Positions 4,421 through 29,500 of a stretch of 32,467 nucleotides of DNA are shown here, one piece after another. The stretch covers positions 1 through 32,467 of the forward strand of contig NZ_JALM01000059.1 in assembly GCF_000737195.2 (NCBI RefSeq), given 5' to 3'. A program made the translations under genes and the position numbers. A model generated the notes under the pieces. The model was not told the DNA's origin, made no database searches, and was given only the letters and a program-made list of their open reading frames with translations. This DNA comes from Sciscionella sediminilitoris (GTDB taxonomy: Bacteria; Actinomycetota; Actinomycetes; Mycobacteriales; Pseudonocardiaceae). Position 1 is the stretch's first letter; each line of letters opens with the position of its first letter.

Positions 4421-4479
4421 TGGTGAGCATCTGTTCGCCGAATCATCGCGCTCGCGCACCGGCGCGGGCAAGCCGGGGC

Positions 4480-5769: not shown

Positions 5770-5796
5770 CAGCACTCCTCTTCGAGCCCGCGCAAC

Positions 5797-5820: not shown

Positions 5821-5833
5821 TATGGATCGGTAG

Positions 5834-5862: not shown

Positions 5863-5865
5863 GAG

Positions 5866-5894
5866 TTGACCGAACCGGATCCGGCATCTAGATT
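5866..5894 (+). promoter_or_regulatory. Predicted rightward promoter of the FGGY kinase operon
   Basis: TTGACC (5866-5871), 17 bases, then TAGATT (5889-5894) make a good SigA-type promoter. Its -35 box lies back to back with the leftward one, separated by only GAG. Transcription would begin near 5901, inside operator candidate O2, fitting repression by the linked SorC-type regulator. Confidence 0.6.
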
Positions 5895-5896
5895 CC

Positions 5897-5928
5897 GAAC
5901 AGTTGCACGATGTAGTGCACATATGTTC
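5897..5928. promoter_or_regulatory. Operator candidate O2 (FGGY kinase side)
   Basis: An imperfect 32-bp inverted repeat: the left arm is GAACA-GTT-GCAC (5897-5908) and the right arm read on the minus strand is GAACA-TATGT-GCAC (5928-5915). It covers the predicted +1 of the rightward promoter and shares the GAACA and GTTGCAC elements with O1. Confidence 0.6.
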
Positions 5929-5942
5929 AGTGGAGAGATGTG

Positions 5943-9364: not shown

Positions 9365-9366
9365 TT

Positions 9367-10398: not shown

Positions 10399-10423
10399 CT
10401 GAACCCCCGTCTCCGATACCCGG

Positions 10424-11647: not shown

Positions 11648-11925
11648 AAACTTCGCCACTCCTCCAGAGCCGCAGAACCGGCCGGTCGGCGCCGACCATG
11701 CCGGGAGCGTAACCATCCGGCTCGCGGGCGCACCACGTCATTCTGCGATACGTGAAAGACGGAGTCCGCGGACATCGCTGGCCTCCGCTTTCAAGCACAG
11801 CCTTCAACACCGCCGAGGAATTCGGAACGAGAATGTACGATGCGGCTCATGGCCAACAGCGCACCGCCGAAGAGAAGCCCGGGATGATGTGATCGAACGC
11901 GGAAGTAAACACCACTGGGGAACTT
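11648..11925. promoter_or_regulatory. Divergent promoter region between glycosyltransferase and regulator genes
   Basis: 278 bases with no gene. It holds the start signals of the leftward tailoring operon and the rightward regulator. An inverted repeat CACGT-N11-ACGTG lies at 11734-11754 and is the only symmetrical element I can point to; it could bind the ArsR-like regulator encoded next to it. No convincing -35/-10 pair was found. The part nearest the regulator is distinctly A/T-richer than the surrounding genes. Confidence 0.5.
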
Positions 11926-12957
11926 ATGAAAATTCTGTTTTCAACCGATGGATTGATGCGCGTTCGCTTGATCAACATCCACAATTCCGTATCTGAAACA
12001 CTATTCGCGGCACGCCTTTTCGGTCGTAGTTCGAACGCGCTGCATTTCGACCGGTGGCGGCGAACCGTGCGAAGCAAGGCCGGCCAGCAGGCCCGTGCGC
12101 TCAGTTCACTGGCGCGGGCGGTGCAGCCACCGGCCGAGCTGTTCCGGCTTCCGGTCAGCACATTCGACTCCGGCGCGGCCGCCGCCTATTACCCGGACAG
12201 GTCGGCATCGGCCGTGAGCAGCCTGCTGTACCGCTTCCACGACGCGGCCATCCTCCCCTATGGGCAGGCACTGGCCAACGCTCTGGAGACGGACCGGAAC
12301 ACCCGCAGCGACATCATTCTCGACCACGGCGTCGACGGCTTCCTGCGCAGTCTCGACCCACTGTGCAGGTGGCAGTTCCCTCAGCTGGAGATCCCGAACG
12401 GATCGGATCACACGATCCGGATCGATGAGCAGGGCCTGCTCATCGCACCGTCCATCTTCCACTGCGACCGTCCCGCCGTGTTCATGCCGAACTCGCGCTC
12501 GAACGGCGGGCCGCCGATTCTGGTGTGTCCTTCGCCCATCACCATCGAGACGGCACACAAGTTGTGGGACTCCGGGGCACACGCCGAGCGCGCTCTCGCG
12601 GCACTGCTCGGGCGCACCCGCAGCAAGCTGCTGGCGGCCCTGACCGGCGGCTCGTCCACGACGGAGCTGGCCCTGCGCCTGGGCATCTCCGCGGCATCGG
12701 TGAGCCAACATACCGGTGTCCTGCGGGAGGCCGGGCTGATCACCACCGATCGTCATCAGAACACCGTCCAGCACCGGCGGACACCACTCGGCCTGGCGCT
12801 GGTCAACCGCATCGGTGCCGCACGCCGGTCCGGGCAGAAGCCGCCTCCGGTGGCCACGGAAGCGCACGAACCGTGCGTCCCCGCGCCGCACTCGGGACAT
12901 CCGGTGGAAACAAGCGCCCCGACCGAGGCGGCTGCTCAGACCAACGCCTCGGTGTGA
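11926..12957 (+). CDS. ArsR-like winged-helix transcription regulator with large N-terminal domain
   Basis: 343 residues. A C-terminal helix-turn-helix (SSTTELALRLGISAASVSQHTGVLREAGLI, roughly residues 243-272) is of the ArsR type. The first 230 residues form a separate domain I cannot assign to a ligand. Proteins of this layout are common in actinomycetes and often sit in secondary-metabolite clusters. The start at 11926 follows GGGGAA; an internal ATG at 11956 is possible. The first 35 or so codons are unusually A/T-rich compared with the rest. The tail after residue 300 looks disordered (Pro/Ala/Thr-rich). Divergent from the glycosyltransferase operon and convergent with the glycosidase gene, overlapping it by 22 bases, it is the only visible pathway-specific regulator. 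Confidence 0.8.
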   Translation: MKILFSTDGLMRVRLINIHNSVSETLFAARLFGRSSNALHFDRWRRTVRSKAGQQARALSSLARAVQPPAELFRLPVSTFDSGAAAAYYPDRSASAVSSLLYRFHDAAILPYGQALANALETDRNTRSDIILDHGVDGFLRSLDPLCRWQFPQLEIPNGSDHTIRIDEQGLLIAPSIFHCDRPAVFMPNSRSNGGPPILVCPSPITIETAHKLWDSGAHAERALAALLGRTRSKLLAALTGGSSTTELALRLGISAASVSQHTGVLREAGLITTDRHQNTVQHRRTPLGLALVNRIGAARRSGQKPPPVATEAHEPCVPAPHSGHPVETSAPTEAAAQTNASV

Positions 12958-14933
12958 TCCCGGGACTTCTCGGTCAAGCCCCACCGCCGGGCGGATCCGG
13001 TACTCGCGACATCCCGGATGCCCACATCCGCCGGGCCGTTTCCGGGGCGGCACACCAACAGCGATTCGCCTGCGCCGAGGCGGCCGCGCAGCATTCCGGG
13101 CGCAGCCCGCTCGACACGAACCGGATGTCCGGCCTCATCACGAACGTCCACCGGGCCGACGATCCCGTGGCGCAACGTGAACGGGCGCCCCGCCTCGCTG
13201 CGCACCCGGATCCAGTCGGTCCTTCCGTTGCTCCGCGAGGCATCGAGCACGAAGGCCCCCGGTGCCCGCAGCCCACTCACCGAGGCCTCCGCCCACTGAC
13301 CGGGCAGCGCGGGAAAGACATCCACCACATCATCGTGATCCGCGGAGACCAGCATCCGCATCATCACTTGGGCGGCTTCGAACGAAGCGCCGTGGTGCGC
13401 GAGCGCACCATCCCGGAGCAGCGTGGCCGCCGACATGCGGGAACCGGCGTGGTCCACGCCGTCCAGCACCGGGCGCAGGTGCTCCAGTGCCTGCTCCGGC
13501 GCACGAATCCCGGCCGCCATCACCGCGAAGGACAGATGCGAGCGGCTGTCCCAAGCCTGCGGCATCGAAGCCCAATGGCGCAGGCTGCGCGACATCACCG
13601 CGCGGTCCTCGGGCCGGTGCCATACCTTCTCCCCGAGCGGATGCATCCAGAGCAGGTGGGCCGGGCGCGGCTGGGATGCCGCGAGCCGTACACCCGCGCC
13701 GAGCAGCACACCGGTCTCGTCGGTGTGGTACGGCACCAGCCGGTCCGCCAATGTCCGCCAGCGCAACCGCTCGTCGTCCGGCACGTCCGGGCCCGCGAGC
13801 CGGTTCGCCGCCCAGCGCAGCAGCGAAAGATCGCAGGTGGAATCCTCCACATTGCCGAAGCCGGGTGAATAGGTCATCGGCAGGTGCAGGTACCCGTCCG
13901 GGCCTTCGAGCAAGGAACTCTCGTAGTGGCTCACCGCGCTGCGCAGCATCGGCCGGAGTACCTCGCTCAGTACACGGGCATCGGCACCGTATCGATAGCT
14001 GTCCCAGATCTCCGGCAGATTCCAGCCCAGGATCGGGTTCTCCGCGTCACCGGACTTGAGCCCCGCGGCGGGGGTCGCGGCCAGCAGATGATCGAAGTTC
14101 CGTGGCCAGTCCCCCTGCTCCGCGGCGGCCAGCGCGGGATGCGAGTCGAGATGATTGGTGGTGCTCAGCGTCACCGGGGTGTCCAGGCCACCGGCCGCGT
14201 CACCGCGCGCGATACTGGCCGCGGCATAGACCTGCAGCCAGTGGAACCGCTGAAGCGTCTTGTCCGGAACCGAAACGAAGCTGCCCCGGTAGTACTGGTG
14301 CCACCAACCGCGATGCGCGGCCAGCAGCCGCTCCGGCTCCTCGGCGGGCAGTTCTCCCGGCGCGCCGATCATCAGCCAGCGCCTGCTGCCGTACCACCGG
14401 TCGCGCCAGCCGATATCCGGCACGTCGTCCTCCGCGACCGGCGCCGCCGCACCCCGCTCCCCGCCGCGCGGGGTGAGACCGGCGAGCAGCGTCCCGGTTC
14501 CGCGCGGGACGCTCACGGTCAATTCCATGCTGCCCCTGGTCGTCGTGACGGTACCGGTCAGCTCGGCGTCCCAGGGATCGAGCCGCCAGTGCACGCCGGT
14601 GAGTGTGCCGCTCAACGGCAGCGTGTAGCGCGCCGCAGGCCGATCCAGGCCGTCCCCTGCCCGGCCGACGGCGAACACGAGGCCGGTTCCGCCCTCGGCC
14701 ACCAAGACCTGCGCGGTGCGGTCACCGTCCCCGAGGAACGGCGCGTTCCACCAGTGCATCGGCGGCCGGACCCAGTGCATGATCGCGTCGCGCACGACGG
14801 TCTCGTAGAGGTCGGCCGTCCCCGCGGTGCCGCCCGCCCACGCGGCGCTGGTGCCGAAGAAGTGTGCGCCGCTCGTGGCAACCGCCGCGGCGGCAAGACC
14901 GCGCAGGAACTGGCGTCGCTCAATCGCGGCCAT
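12936..14933 (-). CDS. Tat-exported glycoside hydrolase, GH95-like
   Basis: 665 residues. The N-terminus ERRQFLRG followed by an Ala-rich hydrophobic run and a cleavage zone near ASGAH...AAWA is a twin-arginine signal, so the folded enzyme leaves the cell. The rest looks like an (alpha/alpha)6-barrel glycosidase of the GH95/alpha-fucosidase type: repeated Trp/Tyr-rich stretches (NLPEIWDSYRYGAD, LPMTYSPGFGNVEDST, LLWMHPLGEKVW) and a beta-rich C-terminus. The family assignment is by pattern only, and the sugar cleaved is unknown. ATG 14933 follows AGGAG. It lies 36 bases after the glycosyltransferase gene in the same operon; an intracellular glycosyltransferase paired with an exported glycosidase recalls the OleI/OleR self-protection scheme of oleandomycin producers. 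Confidence 0.75.
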   Translation of the reverse strand: MAAIERRQFLRGLAAAAVATSGAHFFGTSAAWAGGTAGTADLYETVVRDAIMHWVRPPMHWWNAPFLGDGDRTAQVLVAEGGTGLVFAVGRAGDGLDRPAARYTLPLSGTLTGVHWRLDPWDAELTGTVTTTRGSMELTVSVPRGTGTLLAGLTPRGGERGAAAPVAEDDVPDIGWRDRWYGSRRWLMIGAPGELPAEEPERLLAAHRGWWHQYYRGSFVSVPDKTLQRFHWLQVYAAASIARGDAAGGLDTPVTLSTTNHLDSHPALAAAEQGDWPRNFDHLLAATPAAGLKSGDAENPILGWNLPEIWDSYRYGADARVLSEVLRPMLRSAVSHYESSLLEGPDGYLHLPMTYSPGFGNVEDSTCDLSLLRWAANRLAGPDVPDDERLRWRTLADRLVPYHTDETGVLLGAGVRLAASQPRPAHLLWMHPLGEKVWHRPEDRAVMSRSLRHWASMPQAWDSRSHLSFAVMAAGIRAPEQALEHLRPVLDGVDHAGSRMSAATLLRDGALAHHGASFEAAQVMMRMLVSADHDDVVDVFPALPGQWAEASVSGLRAPGAFVLDASRSNGRTDWIRVRSEAGRPFTLRHGIVGPVDVRDEAGHPVRVERAAPGMLRGRLGAGESLLVCRPGNGPADVGIRDVASTGSARRWGLTEKSRDHTEALV

Positions 14934-14969: not shown

Positions 14970-16133
14970 TCATACTCCGTGATCCTGAAGGTGTTTCCGC
15001 AGCGCATCGGCTGCCGCACCGGCCGGATCGTCGTGGCGCAACGACTTCGCCATCCAGGCCAGCCGGTCGGCCGTCTCCGGATCGGCGACCAGCCGGCGAG
15101 CGGCATCGAGGAACGGCCTGCCCTCGGCCGGTCGGCCGACCGCCACCGCCACCCCGAGCTCCACCAGCCTCTTGGCGATGCCCACCTGGTCGTACGCGCG
15201 CGGCACCGCGATCATCGGCACCTCCTTCAGGACGGCCTCCAGCGCCGAATTCATGCTCGCCCTGGTGAGGAACACCGAAGCACGATCGAGCATCACCGAC
15301 TGCGGCATGAACCGCCGGGCGATCACGTTCTCCGGAAGCTCGCCGATCTCGGCCGGATCGGTTCCGGCGGTGGCCATCAGTACCGTCCACTCCGTACCGG
15401 CGAACTCCTCGGCCAGGGAACGGAAGAACTGGGGAGAACAGCCGAACACGGTGCCCGGCGAAACGAAAAGCAACGGCCCTCGGCCGATCCGCTCCCAGGG
15501 CAGGTCGATGTCTCCGTAGGTGCTGGTGTCCTGGATCAGCGGTCCGACGAAATGGTACCGCTGCCCGAACGTCTCGAACTCGGGTTGCATGTCCGGAGTC
15601 GCGTTGACCAGCGCCAGATCGGCATGATCCCGCAAGGACGGATGGAACTGGGGCAGCAGACCGAGCCGTTTCACCGTGCGGATCCACCGTTCGCTGTGCC
15701 GTCTCCGGAGACTGGCCAGCACCATCTGCTCGCTGACCGCGTAGGTCACGGTGAACGAGGCCAGCGGGGTGCCTTCCTGATGCGCGGCGGGCGCGCCCCA
15801 CCTGGCGGCGATATCGGCGACCACCATGTCCGGGCGCAACCGCGGCCATCGGCGCCGCAGTTCACGGACGATACCGCGGCGTTCCCGCATCATCTTCAGG
15901 CCCATCGCCCGGTTGCGCCGGATCTGTTCCTTGGTCGGATTCTCCGGGAAGTTCGGTATCACCGTGGTGTGGATCTCGGAGACCTCGCAGCCGAGATCGC
16001 GGAAGACCCCGGCGAACGGTGCGGCCACCGCGACCACGACCTCATCACCACGTCGTACGAGCTCGCCGATCAGCGGCGCCATCGGGTTGACATGGCCGTG
16101 CATCGGGTAGGGAATGAACAGATACCGCGACAA
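14970..16133 (-). CDS. MGT/OleD-type glycosyltransferase with altered donor loop
   Basis: 387 residues, GT1 family, macrolide glycosyltransferase (MGT) branch. The N-terminus YLFIPYPMHGHVNPM carries the His-Gly-His that includes the catalytic base of OleD. The start is TTG 16133, seven bases after a perfect AGGAGG; the in-frame ATG at 16187 would have no such site. In the C-terminal donor domain the usual THAG/THGG loop reads TRAS (Arg291 for His, Ser for Gly), while PMIAVPRAYDQ is normal. It is first in an operon with the exported glycosidase gene. OleD/OleI relatives inactivate their own antibiotic by glucosylation, which fits this pairing; the altered loop leaves its own catalytic activity open. 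Confidence 0.85.
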   Translation of the reverse strand: MSRYLFIPYPMHGHVNPMAPLIGELVRRGDEVVVAVAAPFAGVFRDLGCEVSEIHTTVIPNFPENPTKEQIRRNRAMGLKMMRERRGIVRELRRRWPRLRPDMVVADIAARWGAPAAHQEGTPLASFTVTYAVSEQMVLASLRRRHSERWIRTVKRLGLLPQFHPSLRDHADLALVNATPDMQPEFETFGQRYHFVGPLIQDTSTYGDIDLPWERIGRGPLLFVSPGTVFGCSPQFFRSLAEEFAGTEWTVLMATAGTDPAEIGELPENVIARRFMPQSVMLDRASVFLTRASMNSALEAVLKEVPMIAVPRAYDQVGIAKRLVELGVAVAVGRPAEGRPFLDAARRLVADPETADRLAWMAKSLRHDDPAGAAADALRKHLQDHGV

Positions 16134-16421: not shown

Positions 16422-17648
16422 ATGACAGCAAGAAACGCGGACAGCCTGCTCGACCTGTTCGACGCCGACTGGATCGCGCGACCTTACGATTACTATTCCA
16501 AGCTACGCGAACAACATGGCGTCTACCGGGACGACCTGATGCGCAGCTGGGTCGTGCTGAACCATGCGGACATCACCGCGCTGTCCAAGGACGACCGGCT
16601 CTCCGGCGCGCGGATCGACGAATTCCACGCCGCGCTTCCGCCGGAATCCCGCGCGGACATGGCGCCGCTCGCCGCGGTCCTCAAGAACATGATGCTGTTC
16701 CGGGAACCGCCGGAGCACACCCGGTTGCGCAAACTCATCCAGCCCGGCCTGACGCCGCGATTCATCCGGACCGTCCGCTCGACGATCGAGGAACTGACCG
16801 GCGAACTGCTGGACCGGGTGCTGCCGACCGGCCGGATGGACGTCATCCACGACTTCGCCAAGCCGCTCACCCAGTCCGTGATCGCGCTGCTGGCCGGGGT
16901 ACCCGCGCAGGCGGCCCATCTGCTGGCGGACTGGCGCGGGCTGCTGCCGGAGTTCTTCTCGCAGTCCTCGGCCGAGCTGCCCCGGCTGACCGCGTTGCGT
17001 GCGGTCCTCGACGAGAACCTCGCGCAACGACGCGCCGGGCTCGCCGAGGACCTGTTCACCGAGATGATCGCCGACCGGCTGGACGGGGGCGGCTACACCG
17101 ACGATGAGGTGTTCGCCAACTTCCTGCTGCTCATCGACGCCGGACAGGCGACGACCACGCACCTGATCGGTAATGCCGCGCTCGCCCTGCTGGACCATCC
17201 CGGGCAGGCCGAGCTGCTGCGCGACCGGCCCGGACTGGCGGCGAACGCGGCGCAGGAATTCCTCCGCTACGACAGCTCGGTGCAGTTCACGACCCGGATC
17301 GCGACCGGCGAAATGCGGGTGGCCGGCCAACTGATACCCGCCGGGGACAGCGTGACCCTGGTACTCGGGGCGGGCAACCGCGACCCGAGCCGGTACCCCG
17401 AGCCGGACCGGCTCGATCTCACCCGCAAGGCAACCGATCATCTCTCCTTCGGCCACGGCATCCACTATTGCCTCGGTGCCGCGCTGGCCCTCGCGGAGAT
17501 CGAGATCGCCATGCGCTGCCTCGTTCAGCGCACCGAGAACTGGCGAGCCGGCCGCACCGAGCTCTCCTGGCTCGACAGCGTCAACTTCCGGTTCCTCAGC
17601 GCCCTGCCCATCGAGTTCGACGAGCGCAAGCCAGAGGTCACAGCATGA
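16422..17648 (+). CDS. Cytochrome P450 (first), glutamate mutase operon
   Basis: 408 residues, standard bacterial class. Heme loop FGHGIHYCLGAAL with ligand Cys350, an ExxR in EFLRYDS, and I-helix DAGQATTTH are all visible. In the I-helix the acidic residue of the usual AG-x-E/D-T is Ala243, with Thr244 retained, so proton delivery may be unusual. It needs a ferredoxin partner, none of which is encoded nearby. ATG 16422 follows GAAGGG. The stop overlaps the next start (ATGA), so it is translationally coupled to the glutamate mutase genes; the likely substrate is therefore the 3-methylaspartate-derived building block or the peptide containing it, rather than the sugars. Confidence 0.92.
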   Translation: MTARNADSLLDLFDADWIARPYDYYSKLREQHGVYRDDLMRSWVVLNHADITALSKDDRLSGARIDEFHAALPPESRADMAPLAAVLKNMMLFREPPEHTRLRKLIQPGLTPRFIRTVRSTIEELTGELLDRVLPTGRMDVIHDFAKPLTQSVIALLAGVPAQAAHLLADWRGLLPEFFSQSSAELPRLTALRAVLDENLAQRRAGLAEDLFTEMIADRLDGGGYTDDEVFANFLLLIDAGQATTTHLIGNAALALLDHPGQAELLRDRPGLAANAAQEFLRYDSSVQFTTRIATGEMRVAGQLIPAGDSVTLVLGAGNRDPSRYPEPDRLDLTRKATDHLSFGHGIHYCLGAALALAEIEIAMRCLVQRTENWRAGRTELSWLDSVNFRFLSALPIEFDERKPEVTA

Positions 17649-18088
17649 TCACCACCACCCTCGCCCCGAGCCGGACGGTGCTGCTCGGAGTCACCGCCAG
17701 TGATACCCACGCGGTCGCCAACCAGCTCATTTGCCGGCATCTGCGCGGACATGGATTCCACGTGGTCAATCTCGGGGTCTGCACGCCACTGACCGAGTTC
17801 GCCGACGCACTCGACCGGGAACCCGACATCGCGGCAGTACTGATCGGCAGCCTGAACGGGCACGCGTACGAGGATCTGCGCGAGCTGCCCGAACTGCGCC
17901 GCAAGGGCCGGTTACGCCGCCCAGTGATCCTCGGCGGGAACATCTCGGTCGGTGCGCACAAGCAGGCCGGTGACCGGCTCCGGCTGGCAACACTGGGCAT
18001 CGACCACATCCTCACCGATGTGGACAGTCTGCTGCCGCTGCTCGACACCTTGCCGACGGCCCGCGTCCAGGAAGGGCGACATGGCTGA
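17645..18088 (+). CDS. Glutamate mutase, small cobalamin-binding subunit
   Basis: 147 residues, close to the size of the sigma/S subunit. The B12-binding pattern is present: VTASDTHAVAN (Asp20, His22) matches the family's D-x-H-x-x-G, with Ala25 where Gly is usual; VVNLGV, GSLNG and GGNISVG follow as in the family. His22 should bind cobalt from below. With the E subunit it would turn L-glutamate into (2S,3S)-3-methylaspartate in a radical reaction. It overlaps the P450 gene by 4 bases and the E subunit gene by 8. Codon 90 (17912-17914) is the rare leucine codon TTA. In friulimicin and vicenistatin producers, gene pairs of this kind feed a biosynthetic assembly line. Confidence 0.9.
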   Translation: MITTTLAPSRTVLLGVTASDTHAVANQLICRHLRGHGFHVVNLGVCTPLTEFADALDREPDIAAVLIGSLNGHAYEDLRELPELRRKGRLRRPVILGGNISVGAHKQAGDRLRLATLGIDHILTDVDSLLPLLDTLPTARVQEGRHG

Positions 18089-19466
18089 GCTGGGTGCCAT
18101 CGAGGTGAGCGAGGAGCTCGCCGGCCGATTACCGAGCTGGCCGGAGATCGTCGCGCAGCTGCGGGAAAACGGTGCCGGTCGGACCGTGGACGTGCTGCGG
18201 GACGCCGATCGGTGCGGCCGGCCGCTCGTCCAGCCACGCTGTGGCGTCGGCGCGCACCAGGAGATGCTGACCCTGCTGCGCGAGCTCGAAGCGTCCGGAC
18301 CCGCCATCCTTTCGGTCACCATCGACTCGTACACCCGGCTGGGCCAGTTCGACGTCGCCGCCCGGGTGCTTGCCGAGGATCCGCATCGGCTGAACGGCTA
18401 TCCGCTGGTGGCGCACGGCTGGCAGCGAGGGCGCCAGCTCGTCGAGGCGGTCGGGGTTCCGCTGGAGATCCGGCACGGTTCGCCGGACGGACGGCAGCTG
18501 TTCGCCACCGCCCTCGCGGCCGGGTTCACCTCGTACGAAGGCGGCGGCATCGGCTACAACCTCCCGTACTGCAAGGACGTTCCGCTGGCCGATTCACTGC
18601 GCGCCTGGCAGCAGATCGACACCACATGCGGGATGCTGGCCACCGAAGGCGTGCTCGTGGACCGCGAGCTGTTCGGCACCCTGACAGCGGTGCTGGTCCC
18701 GCCGTCGGTCAGCATCGCCGTCACCATGCTGGAGGCGATGGCGGCGGCCCAGGCGGGCGTGCGGTGCCTGTCGATCGCCTACCCACAGGGCGGCGAGATC
18801 CACCAGGATGTCGCCGCGCTGCGCGCCATCCGCGCACTGGCCCGGCGCTACCTCGTCCCGCAGATCGAGGTCTTCCCGGTGCTGCACCAGTTCATGGGCG
18901 CCTTCCCGGACGATCCGGCCCTGGCGAGCGCGCTGATCCTCTACGGCGGGCTGCTCGCGCGGCTCGGCGGCGCCACCAAGGTGATCAGCAAGACCGAACA
19001 GGAGGCGCACGGACTGCCCGATGGGGCAACGAATGGGCGGGGTATCCGCACCACGGCGGTCGGCGCTTCCGGCATGTTCGACTTCGTCAAACTCGACGAG
19101 GACCGGATCGCCGAGGAACAGTCCTGGATCGAGCGGGAGGTCGGCGAACAGGTGGAACCGCTGCTCGCCGGTGGGCACCTCACGACGGAGATCCGGACCG
19201 GGTTCCGGACCGGCCGGCTCGACATCCCGTTCAGTGCGAGCCGGCACGCGCACAGCAGGATCATTCCACGCCGCGACCGGTCCGGGGCCATCCGCTATGC
19301 GGACAGCGGCAACCTCCCGTTCTCCGCGGCAAGCCGGCGCCGCAACGCGGCCCTGCTCGCCGATGCGGATGATTCCCCCGCCCCGGGTCGGCGGGAGACC
19401 GGGGAGATAGCGGCGATGGTGCGGGACATCGCGCATTTCTCCGGTCGCAGCGCAGCTTGTCCCTGA
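18081..19466 (+). CDS. Glutamate mutase, large catalytic (epsilon) subunit
   Basis: 461 residues, slightly shorter than the roughly 480 of the clostridial enzyme. Residues that hold the substrate in that enzyme appear to be conserved: Arg53 (QPRCGVG), Arg86 (IDSYTR), Arg131 (IRHGSPD) and Glu153 (YEGGGIGYNLPY). The RLNGYPLVAHG segment is also typical. The TIM barrel should pair with the cobalamin subunit encoded just upstream (8-base overlap) and isomerise glutamate to 3-methylaspartate. No 3-methylaspartate ammonia-lyase gene is seen, which argues against fermentation of glutamate and for building-block supply. Codon 17 (18129-18131) is TTA. The last 30 or so residues are Arg/Ala-rich and not conserved in my memory of the family. 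Confidence 0.92.
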   Translation: MAELGAIEVSEELAGRLPSWPEIVAQLRENGAGRTVDVLRDADRCGRPLVQPRCGVGAHQEMLTLLRELEASGPAILSVTIDSYTRLGQFDVAARVLAEDPHRLNGYPLVAHGWQRGRQLVEAVGVPLEIRHGSPDGRQLFATALAAGFTSYEGGGIGYNLPYCKDVPLADSLRAWQQIDTTCGMLATEGVLVDRELFGTLTAVLVPPSVSIAVTMLEAMAAAQAGVRCLSIAYPQGGEIHQDVAALRAIRALARRYLVPQIEVFPVLHQFMGAFPDDPALASALILYGGLLARLGGATKVISKTEQEAHGLPDGATNGRGIRTTAVGASGMFDFVKLDEDRIAEEQSWIEREVGEQVEPLLAGGHLTTEIRTGFRTGRLDIPFSASRHAHSRIIPRRDRSGAIRYADSGNLPFSAASRRRNAALLADADDSPAPGRRETGEIAAMVRDIAHFSGRSAACP

Positions 19467-19482
19467 AACCGAAGGATCCAGT

Positions 19483-22233
19483 ATGAGCTACCTGGGATAC
19501 CCGCGGGTGAATTTCGCCGGCAAGTACCAATCGGATATCTCAACCGTCAACAACGCACTCCGCTACTACAACAACGACACCTTCGAACCACGCTTCCAGC
19601 GGCCCGCGTACTTCACCCCGAAGGGGCTGATCGACGAGAACGGGCTGTTCAATCCGCGCGGTACCGGCGATTTCCGGCTGTCCGGGCTGACCGTCCGCAG
19701 CGGACTGTCCCCGGACGGAACCCTCCTCGAGGACAGGTCCAAGGACCCGGTCGTCGGCATGTCGATACTGGAAGGCAACCGGCGGGTCAGCGCCAAGATG
19801 GTGGACATCGACCAGCGTGACCAGACCGTGCCGGGTATCTACGGGCTGTGCGTCCGGATCGTCGACGACAAGGGCCGGGAACTGCTCACCGGCGAGATGG
19901 AACCGACCTGGGTCGAAGACCTGTGGCGCCGCGGGCCCGGTGATCAAACCCCCGGCGGCACCAACGCCAGCGCCATGGTCACCTCGGTGTTGACGGATCT
20001 GCGCTGGGCCGACGATCTGCCCTCCGCGCTGCTGCACCAGCTCAGGGAGAACACCACCGAGGATCTGCTTTCCATCCGGTTCACCATGGACGGCTACGAG
20101 ATCGACCTGTTGAACTTCGGCCTCGCGCACACCTACGGCCGGCTCGTCGGCAGCATCGGCCCGTACCACAGCGGGGAACCGCGCCGGTTCGTCGCAGGCC
20201 GCAGACTCCGGCCGGTGACCGGCAAGTTGTCGGACACGGCGGTCCGTGCGGACGACACCAACCGCACCGTGTTCCTGGATTTCTCCAACAGTTGGCCGAC
20301 CAAGAGCAAGGGCGGGCCGCCTGCCGATCTCGGCTCCCTCAGCCTCGCGGTGCTGGACGACAAGGAGAAGCCGACCGTGTTGGCCCCGCTTCCCCGGGCG
20401 GACACCAGGTTCCTCGAGGATCACGGCGGTATCGCCGCGATCGAGCTGACCGCTGAACAGTTCGCGGCCATCGCTGATCGGCGCCTTGCCGTGGTCGACG
20501 CGGCCAGCCCGCCAGCGGCCGTCCTCGCCGAGAGCTCCGACGGGACCTGGATCCACGCCGACACGATCGTGCACCGGCTCTACCCGGCAAAGCCGTACGA
20601 GACCTCGAGCGCGACCGTCCACGTGACGAAGTTCGGCCGTCCGGCACCCGGTTTCGCGGTGACCGTCTCGGCGCCCAAACCGACCCCGGCGCTGACCTTC
20701 CCGGCCACACTGACAACCGATCACGACGGCCGGGCCGAACTCGCCCTCACCGCGAAGCCACCGCCGAGCCATACCTTCATCGACGGTGTGGCGACCTCCG
20801 TTCTGCTCACCAGCCCGGCCCGGTCGGGACAGCCGGACGCGCGGGTGGCCGCGCTCATCTTCAACGAGTACGACGCGCCGGACCGTCCGACGTGGAATCG
20901 CGATGTCCGGCCGATTTTTCAGCAGTACGCCAACCTCTACCCGGTCATGGGAGGACTCTTCGACCTCGCCAACTACAACCATGTCGTCGAGCAGAAGACC
21001 TACATCAGGCGCACCATGACCGCACCCGTCGAATCACCCACGTACATGCCGGTCAGCCGAGACCTCTCCCCAAGGAAGCGAGACATGATCATGAACTGGC
21101 TGCAGACCAAACCCGCACCGCCCATCCTGGAGATCACCTCGCGCGAGGAACTGCTCACGGTGCTGCAGCAGGCGATGCTGACCGAACTGGCGGTGATCCC
21201 GCCGTACAGCGCGGCGTTGTTCTCCATCAAACCGGGCTTCAACAAGGAGATCCGCCAACTGATCCGCGGGGTGCTGCTGGAGGAGATGCAGCACATGGCG
21301 CAGGTGTGCAACATCATCAACGCGGTCGGCGGCAAGCCGCAGATCGGCCGCCCGGGGCTGGTGCCCACCTATCCGGGACGGCTTCCCGGTCCGGTGCTGC
21401 CCGATCTGACCGTGCGGCTGCGCAAACTGTCCCCGCAACACGTCAAGGACGTGTTCATGGCGATCGAACAGCCCGAGCATCCGATGGTCGACGGCAAACC
21501 GTTCCGCGGCGCGGTGATCGCCGCCGACGAGATCTCGGTCGACAAGCAGGGCAATCTGTTGCGCAGCGGCGAAGCCTCGATGCGCAAGGTCGAGGAGTGG
21601 TTCAGCAAGGCCGAGTACACCCCGATGACGATCGGCTGGTTCTACAACCAGATCGCCAAGGCGATCATCCGGTTCGACGACGGCCGGCTGTTCACCGGTG
21701 ACCCCGCCCGGCAGGTCGGCTGGCCGGACGCGCCGGGCACGCTGTTCCGGGTCACCGACAAACGGACCGCGCTGCTGGGCATCCTGCAGATCATCGAGCA
21801 GGGCGAGGGCAGCCCGCACGACCTGGACGGCGACAATCTGGGAGATCCCGAAGAGCTCGGGCACTACTACCGGTTCGCCGAGATCGTGCACGGCAGGCAG
21901 TTGATGCGCAACGGCGAGGGCAAGTGGGTCTACGAGGGCCCGGAGATCCCGTTCGACCCGGAAGGGGTCTACCCGGTGGTGGACGACGCCGACTCGTACA
22001 GCCTCCCGGCGGATTCGCTCGCCCGGCGGGAGTCACTGAAATGCGATGAGTCCTACACCAACATGCTGGCCGGGCTGAACCGCGTCTTCAACGGGCACCC
22101 CGGGGAGATGGACGACGCCGTGGCGCTGATGGGCCAGCTCCAGGTGCAGGCCAAGCGGTTGTACGAGATCCCGGCCGCGGAAGGCTCCTCGACAGTGGCC
22201 GGACCGGCCTTCCAGTCGCCTGCGCCGCGCTGA
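19483..22233 (+). CDS. VioB/RebD-like enzyme with C-terminal ferritin-like domain
   Basis: 916 residues, near the roughly 1000 of VioB and RebD. The N-terminus MSYLGYPRVNFAGKYQ is the family hallmark (P-R-x-x-F-x-G), and the first two-thirds resemble the large N-terminal region of VioB. From about residue 550 a ferritin-like domain carries metal-ligand candidates: Glu568 (ELAVIPPY), Glu601 and His604 (EEMQH), Glu711 (KAEYTP), and Glu791, His794, Glu800 (EELGHYYRFAEI). VioB/RebD/StaD couple two indole-pyruvate imines oxidatively, but no amino-acid oxidase gene lies here, so another oxidative reaction is likely. The start follows AAGGA and lies 16 bases after the glutamate mutase gene; it ends the four-gene operon. 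The substrate cannot be named. Confidence 0.82.
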   Translation: MSYLGYPRVNFAGKYQSDISTVNNALRYYNNDTFEPRFQRPAYFTPKGLIDENGLFNPRGTGDFRLSGLTVRSGLSPDGTLLEDRSKDPVVGMSILEGNRRVSAKMVDIDQRDQTVPGIYGLCVRIVDDKGRELLTGEMEPTWVEDLWRRGPGDQTPGGTNASAMVTSVLTDLRWADDLPSALLHQLRENTTEDLLSIRFTMDGYEIDLLNFGLAHTYGRLVGSIGPYHSGEPRRFVAGRRLRPVTGKLSDTAVRADDTNRTVFLDFSNSWPTKSKGGPPADLGSLSLAVLDDKEKPTVLAPLPRADTRFLEDHGGIAAIELTAEQFAAIADRRLAVVDAASPPAAVLAESSDGTWIHADTIVHRLYPAKPYETSSATVHVTKFGRPAPGFAVTVSAPKPTPALTFPATLTTDHDGRAELALTAKPPPSHTFIDGVATSVLLTSPARSGQPDARVAALIFNEYDAPDRPTWNRDVRPIFQQYANLYPVMGGLFDLANYNHVVEQKTYIRRTMTAPVESPTYMPVSRDLSPRKRDMIMNWLQTKPAPPILEITSREELLTVLQQAMLTELAVIPPYSAALFSIKPGFNKEIRQLIRGVLLEEMQHMAQVCNIINAVGGKPQIGRPGLVPTYPGRLPGPVLPDLTVRLRKLSPQHVKDVFMAIEQPEHPMVDGKPFRGAVIAADEISVDKQGNLLRSGEASMRKVEEWFSKAEYTPMTIGWFYNQIAKAIIRFDDGRLFTGDPARQVGWPDAPGTLFRVTDKRTALLGILQIIEQGEGSPHDLDGDNLGDPEELGHYYRFAEIVHGRQLMRNGEGKWVYEGPEIPFDPEGVYPVVDDADSYSLPADSLARRESLKCDESYTNMLAGLNRVFNGHPGEMDDAVALMGQLQVQAKRLYEIPAAEGSSTVAGPAFQSPAPR

Positions 22234-22295: not shown

Positions 22296-23492
22296 TCACC
22301 ACGCGACGGGTAACGCCGCCAATCCACCGGCCACCCGGTCACGGTTGACCGGAAGCTCCTCGTCCGGCACGGCAAGGCGCAGCGTCGGGAACCGCGCGAA
22401 CAGCCTGCCGAACACCTCCTGCAGCTCGATCTTCGCCAGGCTGGCACCGATACAGAACCGCGAGCCATAGCCGAACGACATGTGCGGATTGCAGGTACGG
22501 GTGATGTCGAACTCGTCCGGGCACTCGACCCGCTCGGGATCGTAATTGGCCGCGCCGGTGGCCATCACGACCGCGTCCCCGGCCTTGATGGTGACCTCGC
22601 CGATCGTGATGTCGTGTGCCGCCCACCGGGTGACGCCGCCGATCAGGCCCGGGGTGATGGTCATCCGCAGGATCTCCTCGACCGCGCCGGGCAGCAGGCC
22701 GGGATCGGCGAGCAATTTCGCGCGCTGTCCGGGATTGCGGATCAGCAGCAGCACGCCCAGATCGATGCGGGACATGGTGCTCTCGTGCCCGGCGAACAAC
22801 AGTCCGGTGATCAGCCCGGCGGCCTGCTCCGCCGAGGTGACGGTGTCCTCGGGGTTGTGCACCAGATGGGAGACCAGGTCCTCCGCGGGTTCCCGCCGTT
22901 TGGCCGCCATCAGCGCCGCGGTGTAGTCGACGAACTCCGCGCGCGCCGCCCCGGCTCGTGCGCTGTCACCGATATCGCTCATCCGGTTCCACCAGTCGCG
23001 CAGTTTTCCGTGGTCGCCCGGCGGTGCCCCGATCACCTCGCAGATCGCCGTCATCGGCAGCGGCTGGGACAGCACGGCGTGCAGATCGACCGGCGGAGTG
23101 ACCATGGCGTCCAGCACCTCGTCGATGTGCCCGCCGATCCTGGTACGAAGCTGCTCCATCCGCTTCGCCGCGAACGCCGGGGTGAGCAGTCGGCGCATCC
23201 GGTTGTGCACCTCCTGTTCCTTGTCGACCCCGGCGTGCGGCCTGCCCCCGTGGGTTGGCACGCCCGCGACGATCGGCGGGGTCGTCCTCGGGGCGTTGTC
23301 CGGATCCCGGTGCGCCCGGCCCAGCGCCTGGTTGCCGTACAGCTCACGCAGTTCGTCGTACCCGGTGACCAGCCACGCCTCGTCACCGGTCAGGGTGCGC
23401 ACCCGTGCGATGGGCTGCTCCCGCTGCAGTTCACGAAACCGCGGCGGGACCTCCAGTACATCCCCGTCTCCATCGAATGGCAGCTGATCCAT
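22296..23492 (-). CDS. Cytochrome P450 (second), downstream of the NRPS
   Basis: 398 residues. Heme loop FGYGSRFCIGASLAK, ExxR in EEILRMT and a normal I-helix AGHESTMS are present, so the catalytic set is complete. The N-terminal ELQREQPIARVRTLTGDEAWLVTGYDEL-type region is typical of antibiotic-cluster P450s. It begins 18 bases after the NRPS stop and ends the leftward core operon, so oxidation of the peptide is likely, for example hydroxylation or ring coupling of the Tyr-like residue, either on the carrier protein or after release. ATG 23492 has an AAGGA some ten bases upstream. Codon 394 (22311-22313), five codons before the stop, is TTA. Confidence 0.92.
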   Translation of the reverse strand: MDQLPFDGDGDVLEVPPRFRELQREQPIARVRTLTGDEAWLVTGYDELRELYGNQALGRAHRDPDNAPRTTPPIVAGVPTHGGRPHAGVDKEQEVHNRMRRLLTPAFAAKRMEQLRTRIGGHIDEVLDAMVTPPVDLHAVLSQPLPMTAICEVIGAPPGDHGKLRDWWNRMSDIGDSARAGAARAEFVDYTAALMAAKRREPAEDLVSHLVHNPEDTVTSAEQAAGLITGLLFAGHESTMSRIDLGVLLLIRNPGQRAKLLADPGLLPGAVEEILRMTITPGLIGGVTRWAAHDITIGEVTIKAGDAVVMATGAANYDPERVECPDEFDITRTCNPHMSFGYGSRFCIGASLAKIELQEVFGRLFARFPTLRLAVPDEELPVNRDRVAGGLAALPVAW

Positions 23493-23510: not shown

Positions 23511-26500
23511 TCAGGTTTCACCGGTGCGGAGCGAGGCCGTCACGGCGCGCCCGATCGCCGTGACCGACGACGAATCGCTGAGCATCTTGCCGTGCACGAC
23601 ATCGATGTCGTGGTTTTCGATTTCTCCCTTGATGTGTTTCCGCCAGGCCTGCGATGTGCACTTCTCCGGCGAACCCGCGGAATTGCCGACGACATCGGAT
23701 TTCGACGTGGAACCGAAGAACAACAGGTCGCCGATGAATTCCTCCGGCCGGAAACCGGCCATCATCCGGACGTTGTTCACGTACACCCGCATGCTGTTCT
23801 TCAGCCCCTCCTCGCCGAGTGCCGCGAGGCGGTGTCCGGTGTCCCGCAGGTATTCGGCATAACGGCCGAGTACCGCGTCCGGATCGGCGGCAAGCTCGTC
23901 CCTGTCGAAGATGAATTCCTCGGCGAGCAGCGAGGCGATGATCTCGTGGTCCGGCAGCTCCGGTGGCCGCTGGTCCGGATTCGGGTACGCGTCGAGGATG
24001 ACGAGCCGATCGACCGCCGCGCCCCGCCGCTGCAGCTCGACGGCCACCGCGTGCGCCACCAGTCCCCCGAACGACCAGCCGATCAGCCGGTACGGACCCG
24101 CGGGGAACGCGGCCAGGATTTCGTCCGCGTAATCCGCGGCCATGTCCTCGATGGACCCGGGAAGCTCGGCGGGCCCCGCCAGGCCGCGCGCCTGCACGCC
24201 GTAGAGCGGATAGCACGGCGGCAGGTGCGCCAGCAGGCCAGCGTAGCTCCAGCTCGTCCCGGAACCGGGGTGGAAGCAGAACATCGGGGGCCGATCTCCG
24301 TTGCGGCGCAGCGGCAGGATCACGCTGAACGGGTCACGCTCGACATCCGAGCCCAGTTCCACGGCGAGCGCGGCCACGGTGGGCGCCTCGAAGACACTGC
24401 GCACCGACAGCTCCACACCGAACCGTTGCCGGATCAGCCGGACCAACCGGGTGGCGAGGAACGAATGCCCGCCGAGGCTGAAGAAATCCTCGTCGATCCC
24501 CACCGGCGCCCGGCCGAGCAGTTCGCCGAACAGGACGCTCAGCGCATCCTCCTCCGGAGTGCGGGGCAGCCGGGCCGGTCCGGTGCCCTCCGGCGCGGGC
24601 GGCAGTGCGGCGTGGTCGAGCTTGCCGTTGCGGGTCAGTGGCAGCGAATCCAGCACGACGAAGGCCGAAGGCACCAGATAGTCCGGTAACCGGCGTGCCA
24701 GGTGCTCGGCCCAGTCCCGCTGATCCGCGCCCGGCGCGGCCACCACATAGGCGATCAGCACATCCCCGGGCCGCGCCAGCACCACCGCCCGGCGCACCCC
24801 GGGGTGCTCGGCGAGCACCGCCTCCACCTCGCCGGGTTCCACCCGGAATCCGCGGATCTTCAGCTGCCGGTCGGCCCGGCGCACGTACACCAGCTCGCCG
24901 TCCCGCGTCCAGCGGACCAGATCGCCGGTGCGGTACATGCGCCTCCCCGGCGCCCCGAACGGGCAGGCGAGGAACCGCTCCGCCGTGCGGGCCGCACGGC
25001 GGGCGTACCCGCGGGCCAGACAGTCGCCCGCGAGGTACAGCTCACCGGTGACACCGGGGGCGACCGGCTGCAGCGCCGCGTCCAGCACGTACGCCGCGGT
25101 GTTGGGCACCGGGTGGCCGATCGGCGGGCAGGCGGGCGGATCGGCGGCGAGCACCGTCCCGGTGACCACGTGCGTCTCGGTCGGGCCGTACTGGTTGTGC
25201 AGGCGCCGCCCGGGAACCGCGGCAAGGAAGGTCCTGGTGACCTCGCTCGGTTTCAGCGCCTCCCCTGCCTGGATCACCTCGGTCAGCGCGGGCAGCGACA
25301 GACCGGCATCGGTGGCGTTCTCCGCCACCGCCTCGATGACCAGGTTGGGCGCGAACAGCTCACGCACTTCGCTTTCGGCGAGCCAGCGCACCAGCGCCCG
25401 CCCGTCGCGGCGCACGTCCTCGGGGCAGATCGCCAGGGTGCGGCCGGTGGTCAGGGCGAAGCACATCTCCTGGACCGCGACGTCGAAGCCGATCGGCGCG
25501 AATTGCGCGGTCACCGTGCCCGCACCGGCGGGCAGGGTTTCCCGCTGCCAGTCCAGGAGATTGACGATGGTGCGCTGCGGCATCAGCACACCCTTCGGTG
25601 TCCCGGTCGAGCCCGAGGTGTAGAGCAGGTAGAGCCCGGCACCCGGGTCCGGCGGCCCGGGGACGGGGTCACCCGTCTCTCCCCCGTCCTCCTCGATCCG
25701 CACCACCCGATGACCGCTCGCCCACGGCCCTGGCTCGCCGAAGGCGACCACCAGCTCCGGGCGGGCGTCGCCGAGCACCTTCGCGATCCGGTCGGCGGGC
25801 AGCCGGACGTCGATCGGCAGGTAGATCGCACCGGCCTTGAGTACGGCGCACAACGCGACGGCCTGCTCGACCGAGCGGGGCAGGGCCACCGCGACCACGC
25901 GTTCCTGGCCGGCGCCCCCGGCGAGGAGCCTTCGGGCCAGCCGATCGGCCGCGTCGTCGAGCTGCCGGTAGGTCAGCGACATGTCCTCGTACCGGACGGC
26001 GCAGGTGTCCGGGGTGGCCCTTGCCTGCTCGGCGAGCCGCTGCGGCAGTCCGCGCCCGGCAACCGGCCGGTGGGCACCGTTCCAGTTCCGCAGCACGTTC
26101 TCGCGCTCGGCCGGGTCCAGCACCGCCAGGCCGCTGAGCCGCTCTGTGGGGGCGGCGACCGCGGCGGAAAGCAGCCGCGCCAGCCGATCGGCGAGGCTGC
26201 GCGCGCTCGCCTTGTCGAACAAGTCCACGCTGTACTGCACACTGCCCTGGATGCCGCCCGGCTGCCCATCCGGACCGGTGCGTTCGGCGAAGGAGAACAG
26301 CAGGTCGAACTTGGCCGTACGCAGGCTCACCCGCTCCCGTTGCACGGCCAGACCGGAGGCCGGAGCATCGGGCGGAGCCTGCTCGGTGGTGTTCAGCGAG
26401 AGCATCACCTGGAACAGCGGATGCCGGGCCAGTGAGCGCGGCGGGTTGAGCAGCTCCACCAGCCGCTCGAACGGGACATCCTGGTGGTCGTAGGCCGCCA

Positions 26501-29500
26501 GATCCGTGTCCCGGACCCGGCCGATCAATTCGGCGAACGTCGGATCCCCGGAAACATCGGTCCGCAGCACCAGCGTGTTGACGAAGAAACCGACCAGCTC
26601 CTCGAGCCCCGCATCGGATCGCCCCGCCACCGGGGTACCCATCGGAATGTCGGTGCCCGCGCCGAGTCTGGCCAGCAGCCCGGCGATCGCCGCCTGCAGC
26701 ACCATGAACAACGTCGCCCGGCGTCCCCGGGCGAGCGCGGCCAGCCTGGCGTGCAGCGCCGCGGGCAGTTCGAACCCGACCTCGGCGCCGTCCTGCGAGC
26801 CGACCGCGGGCCGTGGCCGGTCCACCGGAAGCGGCAGCTCGACCGGCAGCCGCGCCAGCGTCTCCCGCCAGTACGCCTCCTGCTCGGCGAACACCGCCGC
26901 CCCCAGGACGTCGCGCTGCCAGAGCGCATAGTCCACATAGGACACTGGCAGATCCGGCCACCGCGGGGCCCGCCCGCCACTGCGTGCCGCGTAGGCCCGG
27001 GTCAGATCCCTGGCCAGCACGGACATCGACCAGCCGTCCGTTGCCACGTGATGAACCACCAGCACCAGCACGAATTCCCGCGCCCCGAGCATCAGCAACC
27101 GGGCCCGCACCGGCGGCCTCCGGTCGGCGAGGTCGAACCGCTGCCCGAGAACGGCCGCGATCTCGTCCGCGACACGTTCCGGGGCCACGTGGGCCACGGT
27201 GAACTCGGGCGTGGCATCCGGCAGCACGATCTGGTGCGGTCCCTCGTCGTCCTCGGCGAACACCGTCCGCAGCGTCGCGTGCCGTCCGAGCACATCGGCG
27301 AGCGCGGCGCGCAGTGCGGGCAGATCGAGGTTCCCGCGCAGCCGCAGCGGCATCGGGACGTTGTAGGCGGGCCTCGGTCCCTCGACCCGATTGAGGAACC
27401 AGAGCCGGTACTGCGCGGCGGAAAGCGGCAGCCGGTCCGGCCGTGGCACGCTCGGGACGATCGGCGGCCGTCGTTGCTGTCCTTCGCCGAGGATCTCGCC
27501 GAGCGCGGCCACCGAAGGAGCGTCGAAGAGTTTCCGCACCGCCAATTCGACGCCGAGGGCCGCGCGGATCCGACCGACGAGCCTCGTGGCCAGCAGCGAA
27601 TGCCCGCCGAGGGCGAAGAAGTCGTCGTCGATCCCGACCTCGAGGACGCCGAGCACATCCGCGAACAGGCGAGAGAGGATCTCTTCCCGGGGACCGCGCG
27701 GCATCCGCCCGCCCGGGGCGGTGCCGCGTTCCGGCGCGGGCAGGGCCTGGATGTCGACCTTGCCGTGCGGGGTGAGCGGAAGCTCGGGCAGCACCACGAA
27801 GGCCGCGGGCACCAGGTGGGCGGGAAGCCGCGCGGTGAGATGCGACCGCAGATCCGGGTTTTCCGCTCCGGTACGGAGCACCACGTACGCCACCAACCGC
27901 CGCTCGCCATCGGGCTCGGCGCGAGCGAGCACGACCGCCCGCGCCACCTCGGGGTGCTCGTCGAGCGCCGCCTCGATCTCCGCGGGTTCGATCCGGAACC
28001 CGCGGATCTTCACCTGATCGTCGGCCCGCCCGAGGAAACACAGCGCACCGTCGGCCCGCCGGTAGGCCCGGTCGCCGGTGCGGTACATGCGCTGTCCCGG
28101 CGGGCCGAACGGACAGGCCACGAAACGCTCCGCGGACAGGTCCGGACGGTCCAGATACCCCCGCGCCAGTCCGGCTCCTGCCAGGTAGAGCTCCCCGGCG
28201 ACCTCGGTCGCGGCCAGGCCGAGGCGGTCATCGAGCAAGTAGACCCGGGTGCCGTCGATGGGCCGTCCGATCGGTGGCACCCCATCGCCGCTCAGTGGTT
28301 CGCTCATCGTGGCGCAGACCGTGTTCTCGGTCGGGCCGTACGCGTTCACCATCCGGCGGCCCGGCGCCCACCGGGACACCAGCGCGGCCGGGCACGGCTC
28401 ACCGGCGACCACCACGGTCGCCCCGGCGGGCAGTGTTTCGGCGGGCAGCATCGCCAGTGCGGTCGGCGGCAGCGTGACGCAGTCGATCGCGCGTTCGGCG
28501 AGCAGAGCGGCAAGGGGTTCGCCGGGCAGCATCCGCTCGCCCGCGGTCAGCACCAGGGTCGCCCCGGAGCACAGCGTGACCCACAACTCCGAGCATGTCG
28601 CGTCGAAACTGAGCGCGGCGAACTGCAGGACCCGCCGACCCGGGCGCACATCGAAGGCCCGCTGTTGCCCGGCCACCAGCGCGGAAAGCCCGTGATGGGT
28701 GACGACCACGCCCTTCGGGCGACCGCTCGAGCCGGAGGTATAGGTGACGTACGCCGGGTTCGCCGTGGTCAGCGGTGCGACGCGATCGGCGTCCACCGGA
28801 TCGCGCCCGGATGCCGCCCCGGGCTCCTCGGTGTCCAGCAGCAGCACGGGAACCTCGGCCGGTTCCGGCAGCGTCGCGGCGATCGCCGCGGTGGTCAGCA
28901 GACAGACCGGGCGAGCCTCGGCGAGCAGCCGGGCCAGGCGCACCGGCGGGTGGGCCGGATCCAGTGGCAGATAGGCGGCTCCGGCCTTGGCCACCGCGAG
29001 CAACGCGACCGGAAGCACGGTCTCCCGCCCTGCCAGTACGGCGACCAGGTGCTCCGGGCCGATACCGCGGGCGATGAGGCGATGCGCCCACTGGTTGGCC
29101 CGCCGGTTCAGTTCGGCGTAGGTCACCGTGGAGTGGTCGTCCACGACGGCGGGGGTGTCCGGGGTGCGGGCCGCCTGTCGCGCGAACAACTCCGGCAGCG
29201 TGGCGGCCGGTGGCGCCTCCGGGCCCCGGCACCAGGCCAGGATCCGGTCCCGCTCCGCTGGTTCCGGCAAACGGATCCGGTGTACCGGCGTCTCCGGCGC
29301 ATCGGCCAGCAGTTCCAGCACCCGGACGACCCGGCCGAGAATGCGCCGCGCCGAATCGCCGCCGAACACGCTGGGCCGGTAATCCACCCGCAGCACCAGA
29401 CCGGATCCGGGCGCCGCGACCAGGGCGAGCGGGTAGTGCGTGCTGTCCCGGCCGCGGACCCGGCGCACCCGGAGCTGCTCGCCCCGCGACGCGGGGGGAC

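Follow-up and report, generated by a model that had tools for sequence, protein, structure and literature searches.

A glutamate mutase pair nested between a cytochrome P450 and a VioB-like protein in a probable telomycin-type lipopeptide cluster of Sciscionella sediminilitoris

We analyzed a 32,467-nucleotide stretch of Sciscionella sediminilitoris DNA (hereinafter, the window), which is an entire contig (NZ_JALM01000059.1, G000:C59), with a focus on four closely packed genes encoding a cytochrome P450 (P450a), the two subunits of a glutamate/methylaspartate mutase (GlmS and GlmE) and a protein with a VioB-type ferritin-like domain (VioBL). The original prediction, made from the sequence, had combined the P450, the mutase and VioBL into a single system that makes 3-methylaspartate and oxidizes it further. 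The operon is real and appears to include a methylaspartate supply, but the proposed link between the mutase and the oxidation pair is not borne out by the related loci. Instead, these genes probably provide the precursor and tailoring functions of a telomycin-type lipopeptide nonribosomal peptide synthetase (NRPS) cluster, in which the mutase separately supplies methylaspartate, its genes having been inserted into an older P450a-VioBL oxidation operon. A speculative methylaspartate-oxidizing system thereby gives way to a testable picture of telomycin-like clusters in several actinobacterial families.

The four-gene unit and its mutase-free relatives

The unit consists of the following genes, and all four proteins exceed the cut-offs of their Pfam families (P450, B12-binding, MutE and Ferritin-like).

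16422..17648, forward strand: P450a, cytochrome P450, first gene of the unit (PF00067)
17645..18088, forward strand: GlmS, glutamate/methylaspartate mutase subunit S, B12-binding (PF02310)
18081..19466, forward strand: GlmE, glutamate/methylaspartate mutase subunit E (PF06368, 375 bits)
19483..22233, forward strand: VioBL, 916 amino acids, with a beta-rich N-terminal part and a ferritin-like domain at residues 561-802 (PF12902)

P450a and GlmS overlap by 4 bases (ATGA), GlmS and GlmE overlap by 8 bases, and a gap of 16 bases separates GlmE from VioBL, so that the coupled unit was confirmed in its coordinates, overlaps, gap and Pfam matches. Third-position GC is of the coding type in the P450a, GlmE and VioBL frames (GlmS was not separately listed). 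The identical gene order, with identical 4- and 8-base overlaps, was found in Actinoplanes utahensis and Plantactinospora endophytica, where the gap preceding VioBL measures 23 and 50 bases, respectively. Because order and overlaps recur in these two genomes, the arrangement is not due to chance.

VioBL was searched for in several genome samples. Among same-family genomes, 52 of 297 matched VioBL at 1e-10, and 6 of the 297, including the window, were full-length; most of the other same-family matches listed cover the ferritin-like domain only. A scan of named genomes, which seeds on exact 8-residue patterns and hence misses distant members, yielded 8 VioBL loci, 2 of them in genomes already among the same-family matches. 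VioBL was further found in 3 of 250 genomes of the A. utahensis family (two already known), in 2 of 246 Streptomyces genomes (one being the query genome and one partial) and in 2 of 364 genomes of a class-wide sample (the window and, judging by contig number and position, probably Streptomyces sp. LUP47B once more). This resulted in 13 distinct genomes with full-length VioBL: the window, A. utahensis, P. endophytica, Saccharopolyspora hirsuta, S. griseomycini, Streptomyces sp. LUP47B, Streptomyces sp. TRM68367, S. acidipaludis, Amycolatopsis rhizosphaerae and the genomes G100, G060, G016 and G892. The neighborhoods fetched, to which the counts below refer, ranged from 5 to 100 kb; that of A. 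rhizosphaerae is a 5.2-kb contig and that of TRM68367 ends just past VioBL. Since VioBL was the query that led to each of the 13 loci, their having it in common says nothing by itself and telomycin-like clusters without VioBL cannot show up; the telomycin cluster itself is not among them.

Both GlmS and GlmE were found in 3 of the 13 fetched neighborhoods (the rest of these genomes was not searched for mutases), namely, those of the window, A. utahensis and P. endophytica, and in all three the mutase slot lies between P450a and VioBL with the same overlaps. Orthologues of P450a (59-77% identity) are present in 8 of the 13 genomes, the window counted. In four of these (S. hirsuta, LUP47B, TRM68367 and G100), P450a directly precedes VioBL without a mutase, overlapping it by 4 bases in S. 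hirsuta, and in G892 P450a lies about 13 kb from VioBL with no mutase in the fetched stretch. In S. griseomycini, the P450 in the slot before VioBL is not P450a and shares 29% identity with it, and G892 has a relative of this protein too. Thus, VioBL occurs without the mutase in 10 of the 13 neighborhoods, an independence in relatives that the original prediction had itself named as speaking against it. An obligate system of P450, mutase and VioBL was rejected, given that P450a and VioBL co-occur without a nearby mutase in 5 genomes.

A dedicated system in which P450a and VioBL further oxidize the methylaspartate made by the mutase would fit the constant P450a-GlmS-GlmE-VioBL order and overlaps in all three mutase genomes, as well as the similar identities of the four proteins to those of A. 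utahensis and Plantactinospora (77/74% for P450a, 74/72% for GlmS, 74/71% for GlmE and 76/72% for VioBL), as if they were co-inherited. However, a shared unit yields the same pattern without shared chemistry, and the I-helix of P450a is unchanged with or without the mutase. Together with the 5 genomes lacking a mutase near the pair, this makes such a system improbable.

The three mutase genomes form one clade, supported at 100/100, in the VioBL tree as well as in the P450a tree. The confinement of the mutase to this clade fits a single addition, and one insertion appears to be the simplest account, although loss of the mutase elsewhere is possible instead. Across the 13 loci, the mutase is present in 3 and a fused aminotransferase-methyltransferase (AT-MT) in or near the operon in 5, never both; one operon can thus carry differing precursor supplies, mutase or AT-MT.

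Under the preferred explanation, GlmS and GlmE would rearrange L-glutamate to 3-methylaspartate, to be loaded by an Asp-type adenylation domain, probably at position 7 of the peptide. P450a and VioBL, the latter a putative ferritin-like iron oxidase, would constitute an older oxidation pair with no need of the mutase, most likely oxidizing a different residue of the peptide, either while carrier-bound or after release, with the tryptophan-type positions 8 and 9 as prime candidate targets. The mutase genes would have entered the P450a-VioBL operon in a single event in the clade ancestor, landing between the two genes, such that only expression is shared. The expectation that this combination lacks a described pathway held: in the literature searched, limited to the open-licence papers listed, we found no description of the P450, mutase and VioBL combination or of VioBL in NRPS clusters.

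The mutase, P450a and VioBL proteins

Residues 40-424 of GlmE align with the solved GlmE 6h9e (E 1.7e-75), and R66, R100, R149, E171, Y177 and Y181 are conserved, corresponding to R53, R86, R131, E153, Y159 and Y163 of 6h9e; we take the arginines to be those that hold the substrate and E171 to be the catalytic glutamate. GlmS retains the B12-binding DxH motif (D20-T-H22, aligned to D14-C-H16 of 1i9c), with Ala replacing Gly three residues past the motif histidine. As the catalytic residues checked are kept, 3-methylaspartate is a reasonable product and mutase activity in this cluster is likely, in support of the part of the original prediction that concerned this amino acid.

An I-helix acid-alcohol pair is usual in canonical P450 monooxygenases. 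In all 8 P450a orthologues, the I-helix motif is AGQATTT, with Ala at the usual acid position, so that the canonical acid is absent, whereas the heme motif FGHGIHxCLG is normal (8 of 8). The I-helix motif is identical with and without a mutase nearby. The closest solved relative of P450a is chain 3ejb_B, annotated as 'Biotin biosynthesis cytochrome P450-like enzyme', an enzyme known to act on a carrier-bound acyl chain; by analogy, P450a might likewise take a carrier-bound substrate.

The description of VioBL as VioB-like stood for the ferritin-like domain (182.1 bits against PF12902, above the cut-off) and failed for VioB proper: against the VioB equivalog TIGR04492, VioBL scores 22.3 bits compared to a cut-off of 1250, and its identification as a real VioB was rejected. 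That VioBL nevertheless acts as a true VioB/RebD-type enzyme, coupling two imines from an oxidized amino acid, is very improbable. It shares the Pfam domain of VioB along with the weak TIGR04492 match, but no VioA/RebO-type flavin amino-acid oxidase was detected by Pfam among the 21 window proteins scanned (the remaining genome was not searched). A flavoprotein encoded near VioBL in S. acidipaludis was considered as such a partner and rejected, its best solved relatives being phytoene desaturases rather than VioA or RebO.

Eleven relatives align over their full length with the window VioBL at 50-76% identity, and E568, E601, H604, E662, E711, E772 and H794 are invariant in all 12 aligned sequences, a set of glutamates and histidines that could hold a carboxylate-bridged iron site. 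A structural model of VioBL (pLDDT 78, 12 sequences) comprises the beta-rich N-terminal part followed by a helical domain resembling 3hl1; beyond this ferritin-like domain, the structure search returned low-scoring matches only. The two parts of VioBL sit in adjacent genes in G162, and in 8 of the 20 rows listed for plasmids (167 records matched), the VioBL match is spread over a pair of genes, one annotated as 'hypothetical protein' and the other as 'ferritin-like protein'.

The peptide synthetase and the tryptophan-type genes

Beyond VioBL, the window encodes the following proteins.

22296..23492, reverse strand: P450b, second P450 with an AGHEST I-helix, between VioBL and the NRPS (Pfam, motif)
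23511..30572, reverse strand: NRPS terminal unit of condensation (C), adenylation (A), thiolation (T) and thioesterase (TE) domains in the order C-A-T-C-A-T-TE, with the codes DASTVAAVCK (Tyr-type) and DVQFIAQVVK (Pro-type) (Pfam domains, codes)
30569..32467, reverse strand: NRPS gene upstream of the terminal unit, truncated at the contig end and retaining the end of A followed by T and C

The window NRPS matches the CAT-CATTe termination, which a passage of PMC9113097 names for telomycin and related lipopeptides. NRPS codes, whose residue meanings we presume throughout from general code rules, could be read in 7 of the 13 loci: 11 modules in LUP47B, 10 in G892 before the fetched stretch ends, 9 in S. 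hirsuta with room for two unread ones, 7 in Plantactinospora from the contig start, 6 in S. griseomycini up to the contig end and 2 each in the window and A. utahensis. The S. griseomycini codes finish with Gly-Pro-X8-X9-Leu-Pro, the first five of which (Gly to Leu) are shared by G892, while those of Plantactinospora read Pro-Gly-Asp-type (DMTKVGAVNK)-X8-X9-Tyr-Pro. The Plantactinospora X8 and X9 domains are closest to each other (66%) and then to position 8 of LUP47B (52 and 55%). An Asp-type code at position 7 is also present in LUP47B and S. hirsuta, which lack the mutase, and this code alone is therefore no proof of methylaspartate.

Passages of PMC6331918 describe ambobactin as having the telomycin sequence, with dehydrotryptophan, methyltryptophan, hydroxyleucine and hydroxyproline as the C-terminal residues, and report tandem mass spectrometry losses in the order hydroxyproline, hydroxyleucine, methyltryptophan and dehydrotryptophan. 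From this order it follows that X8 and X9 match dehydrotryptophan and beta-methyltryptophan, and the readable codes point to 11-residue lipopeptides of a telomycin-like family. In A. utahensis, Plantactinospora, S. griseomycini, LUP47B and S. hirsuta, the genes after the NRPS include those for an acylase, an MbtH protein and a hydrolase; in the first two, such genes occupy the gap that matches the position of P450b. In S. hirsuta, AMP-binding and PP-binding proteins are encoded upstream of the NRPS, the best NCBIfam matches of the former including fatty acyl-AMP ligases, below cut-offs.

Several observations weigh against our explanation. Both mutase subunits are diverged by score, falling below the NCBIfam equivalog cut-offs (81.9 versus 110 bits for GlmS, NF002612; 334 versus 390 bits for GlmE). 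The acylase, MbtH, acyl-AMP ligase and AT-MT references have no match in the window. Because the contig end cuts the NRPS, no Asp-type module is visible in the window, and neither this module nor positions 8 and 9 were seen in the window genome; a search for the rest of the NRPS in the starting stretches (20 kb at most) of 60 of the 215 G000 contigs gave weak single matches only, the best NRPS-type match being 36% over 595 residues. The telomycin-like label draws on 7 of the 13 loci, two of which (the window and A. utahensis) display the last two codes only, the code meanings are general rules, and the tryptophan reading of X8 and X9 leans on telomycin. Within the mutase clade, P450a or VioBL could also have come to act on methylaspartate at a later time.

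Tryptophan-type genes were found in 6 of the 10 mutase-free VioBL loci, AT-MT in 5 and a tryptophan-5-halogenase-like gene in 2, with both in G892. AT-MT, which we regard as putative beta-methyltryptophan genes, was not found in the 3 mutase loci; it adjoins VioBL in S. griseomycini, LUP47B, G100 and G892 and lies about 6 kb off in S. hirsuta. The methyltransferase half of the S. griseomycini AT-MT matches MppJ (4kib, 1.1e-30), a methyltransferase of mannopeptimycin biosynthesis acting on phenylpyruvate. The fusion itself (L033:12837-14936) would apparently allow a single protein to make a beta-methyl aromatic amino acid. The halogenase-like gene of S. acidipaludis (L034:5772-7310; tryptophan 5-halogenase match of 890 bits) is separated from VioBL by one GH95-like gene, and that of G892 (L108:1982-3595; 835 bits) adjoins VioBL and is followed by PvdN-like and flavin-reductase genes. 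The PvdN-like pyridoxal phosphate enzyme (L108:3610-4908) lies close to VioBL in a cluster family that also carries PvdQ-like acylases. AT-MT was additionally tried in other Streptomyces as a route to the telomycin cluster. Matches at 1e-60 were obtained in 26 of 372 genomes; leaving aside S. griseomycini and LUP47B, neighborhoods were fetched for 15 of the remaining 24 and, as none of these had a VioBL match, the route was rejected. The NRPS codes read in 3 of these 15 (G327, G329 and G635) were not telomycin-like, and the other 12, checked for reference-gene matches only, had no acylase match.

How the Z-dehydrotryptophan of telomycin is formed is called unanswered in a passage of a 2023 review (PMC10880069), and VioBL, an oxidation enzyme without assigned function in telomycin-like clusters, is a concrete candidate. 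We tentatively propose that VioBL, as the first member of a new enzyme class, could be a ferritin-like iron oxidase for the desaturation of tryptophan in nonribosomal peptides, producing the dehydrotryptophan of the telomycin family, the window clade having added a 3-methylaspartate supply. In favor of this proposal, 6 of the 13 loci carry tryptophan-type genes close to VioBL, and two VioBL clusters have the telomycin residue order from Gly to Leu. Conversely, VioBL of G016 adjoins a RamC/LanC-like protein, VioBL of G060 lies near a two-component system in a 60-kb stretch that gave no NRPS match, the mutase clade loci yielded no match to AT-MT (halogenases were searched for only among the window proteins scanned) and the GH95-like gene is a commoner VioBL partner (10 of 13). 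Furthermore, the beta-methyltryptophan role of AT-MT is one that we infer, and the telomycin cluster lies outside the compared loci, all of which contain VioBL by construction. As a separate observation, the RamC/LanC-like lanthipeptide-type synthetase of G016 (L048:11085-13682) raises the possibility that the VioBL family also acts in ribosomal peptide pathways. The lasting interest of the window lies in VioBL, without an assigned function in telomycin-like clusters, rather than in a mutase-oxidase link.

Neighboring genes and comparison with known systems

The other genes of the window are as follows.

1079-8434: sugar-metabolism genes (FGGY and PfkB kinases, class II aldolase, hydroxyacid dehydrogenase, major facilitator superfamily transporter, short-chain dehydrogenase/reductase, sugar-binding regulator)
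8489..11659, reverse strand: Rgt-like glycosyltransferase, sulfotransferase and methyltransferase (profile matches), conserved in the mutase clade
12121..12957, forward strand: helix-turn-helix regulator, with homologues in A. utahensis (64%), Plantactinospora (61%), S. hirsuta (43%) and G892 (42%)
12936..14933, reverse strand: GH95-like glycoside hydrolase (PF21307, 41.7 bits) with a twin-arginine-like N-terminus, ERRQFLRG
14970..16133, reverse strand: MGT-type glycosyltransferase, a conserved neighbor (TIGR01426, 205.8 bits versus a cut-off of 260)

The sugar-metabolism genes are probably outside the antibiotic cluster. The Rgt-like glycosyltransferase, sulfotransferase and methyltransferase have homologues in A. 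utahensis (73, 68 and 73%, respectively); in Plantactinospora, glycosyltransferases (62 and 64%) and a methyltransferase (67%) were found and a sulfotransferase was not. The cluster product may therefore be glycosylated, methylated and sulfated. Homologues of the MGT-type glycosyltransferase lie near VioBL in relatives, and those of the GH95-like protein, whose ERRQFLRG motif we take to be twin-arginine-like, are present in 10 of the 13 genomes, the window counted. The pair recurs in relatives and may be a self-protection device, with glycosylation inside the cell and reactivation outside.

VioBL itself might modify a sugar or join the hydrolase and the transferase in this self-protection, considering that the GH95-like gene accompanies VioBL more often than any other partner counted (10 of 13, compared to 8 of 13 for P450a) and directly adjoins VioBL in S. 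acidipaludis and A. rhizosphaerae. However, the 60 kb fetched for G100 contain P450a, VioBL and AT-MT, yet nothing that matches the GH95-like gene, and VioBL of G060 and G016 likewise stands without a GH95-like match in 60 kb each, so that we consider this role unlikely and retain oxidation of the peptide as the preferred function. In S. hirsuta, VioBL is immediately followed by genes for a stand-alone A-T protein, a TauD oxygenase and an OCD/PALP pair (L032:12744-18164), the last presumably of the diaminopropionate type.

Among known systems, VioB, of the VioB/RebD iminophenylpyruvate dimer synthases, resembles VioBL in architecture. VioB has a large N-terminal part followed by the PF12902 ferritin-like domain; VioBL differs in its very low score on the VioB equivalog and in the lack of an amino-acid oxidase partner among the window proteins scanned. 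MppJ resembles the methyltransferase half of the S. griseomycini AT-MT, the gene of which lies near VioBL, but this half is fused to an aminotransferase, and AT-MT was not found in the mutase clade loci. The methylaspartate of friulimicin is attributed in a passage of PMC9113097 to a glutamate mutase, and GlmA/GlmB of Actinoplanes friuliensis, like GlmS and GlmE of the window, form a two-subunit mutase within a lipopeptide NRPS cluster (PMC9113097). What sets the window mutase apart is its position, with a P450 gene on one side and VioBL on the other. The telomycin cluster of Streptomyces canus (tem) shares the CAT-CATTe termination with the window and, with the relatives of the window, the acyl-AMP ligase and carrier protein, the PvdQ-type acylase, MbtH, AT-MT and the Gly-Pro-X8-X9-Leu-Pro order. 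In contrast to telomycin, the window clade has the mutase instead of AT-MT, a Tyr-type code instead of Leu at position 10, an Asp-type code instead of Pro at position 7 (seen in Plantactinospora), and glycosyltransferases together with a GH95-like gene.

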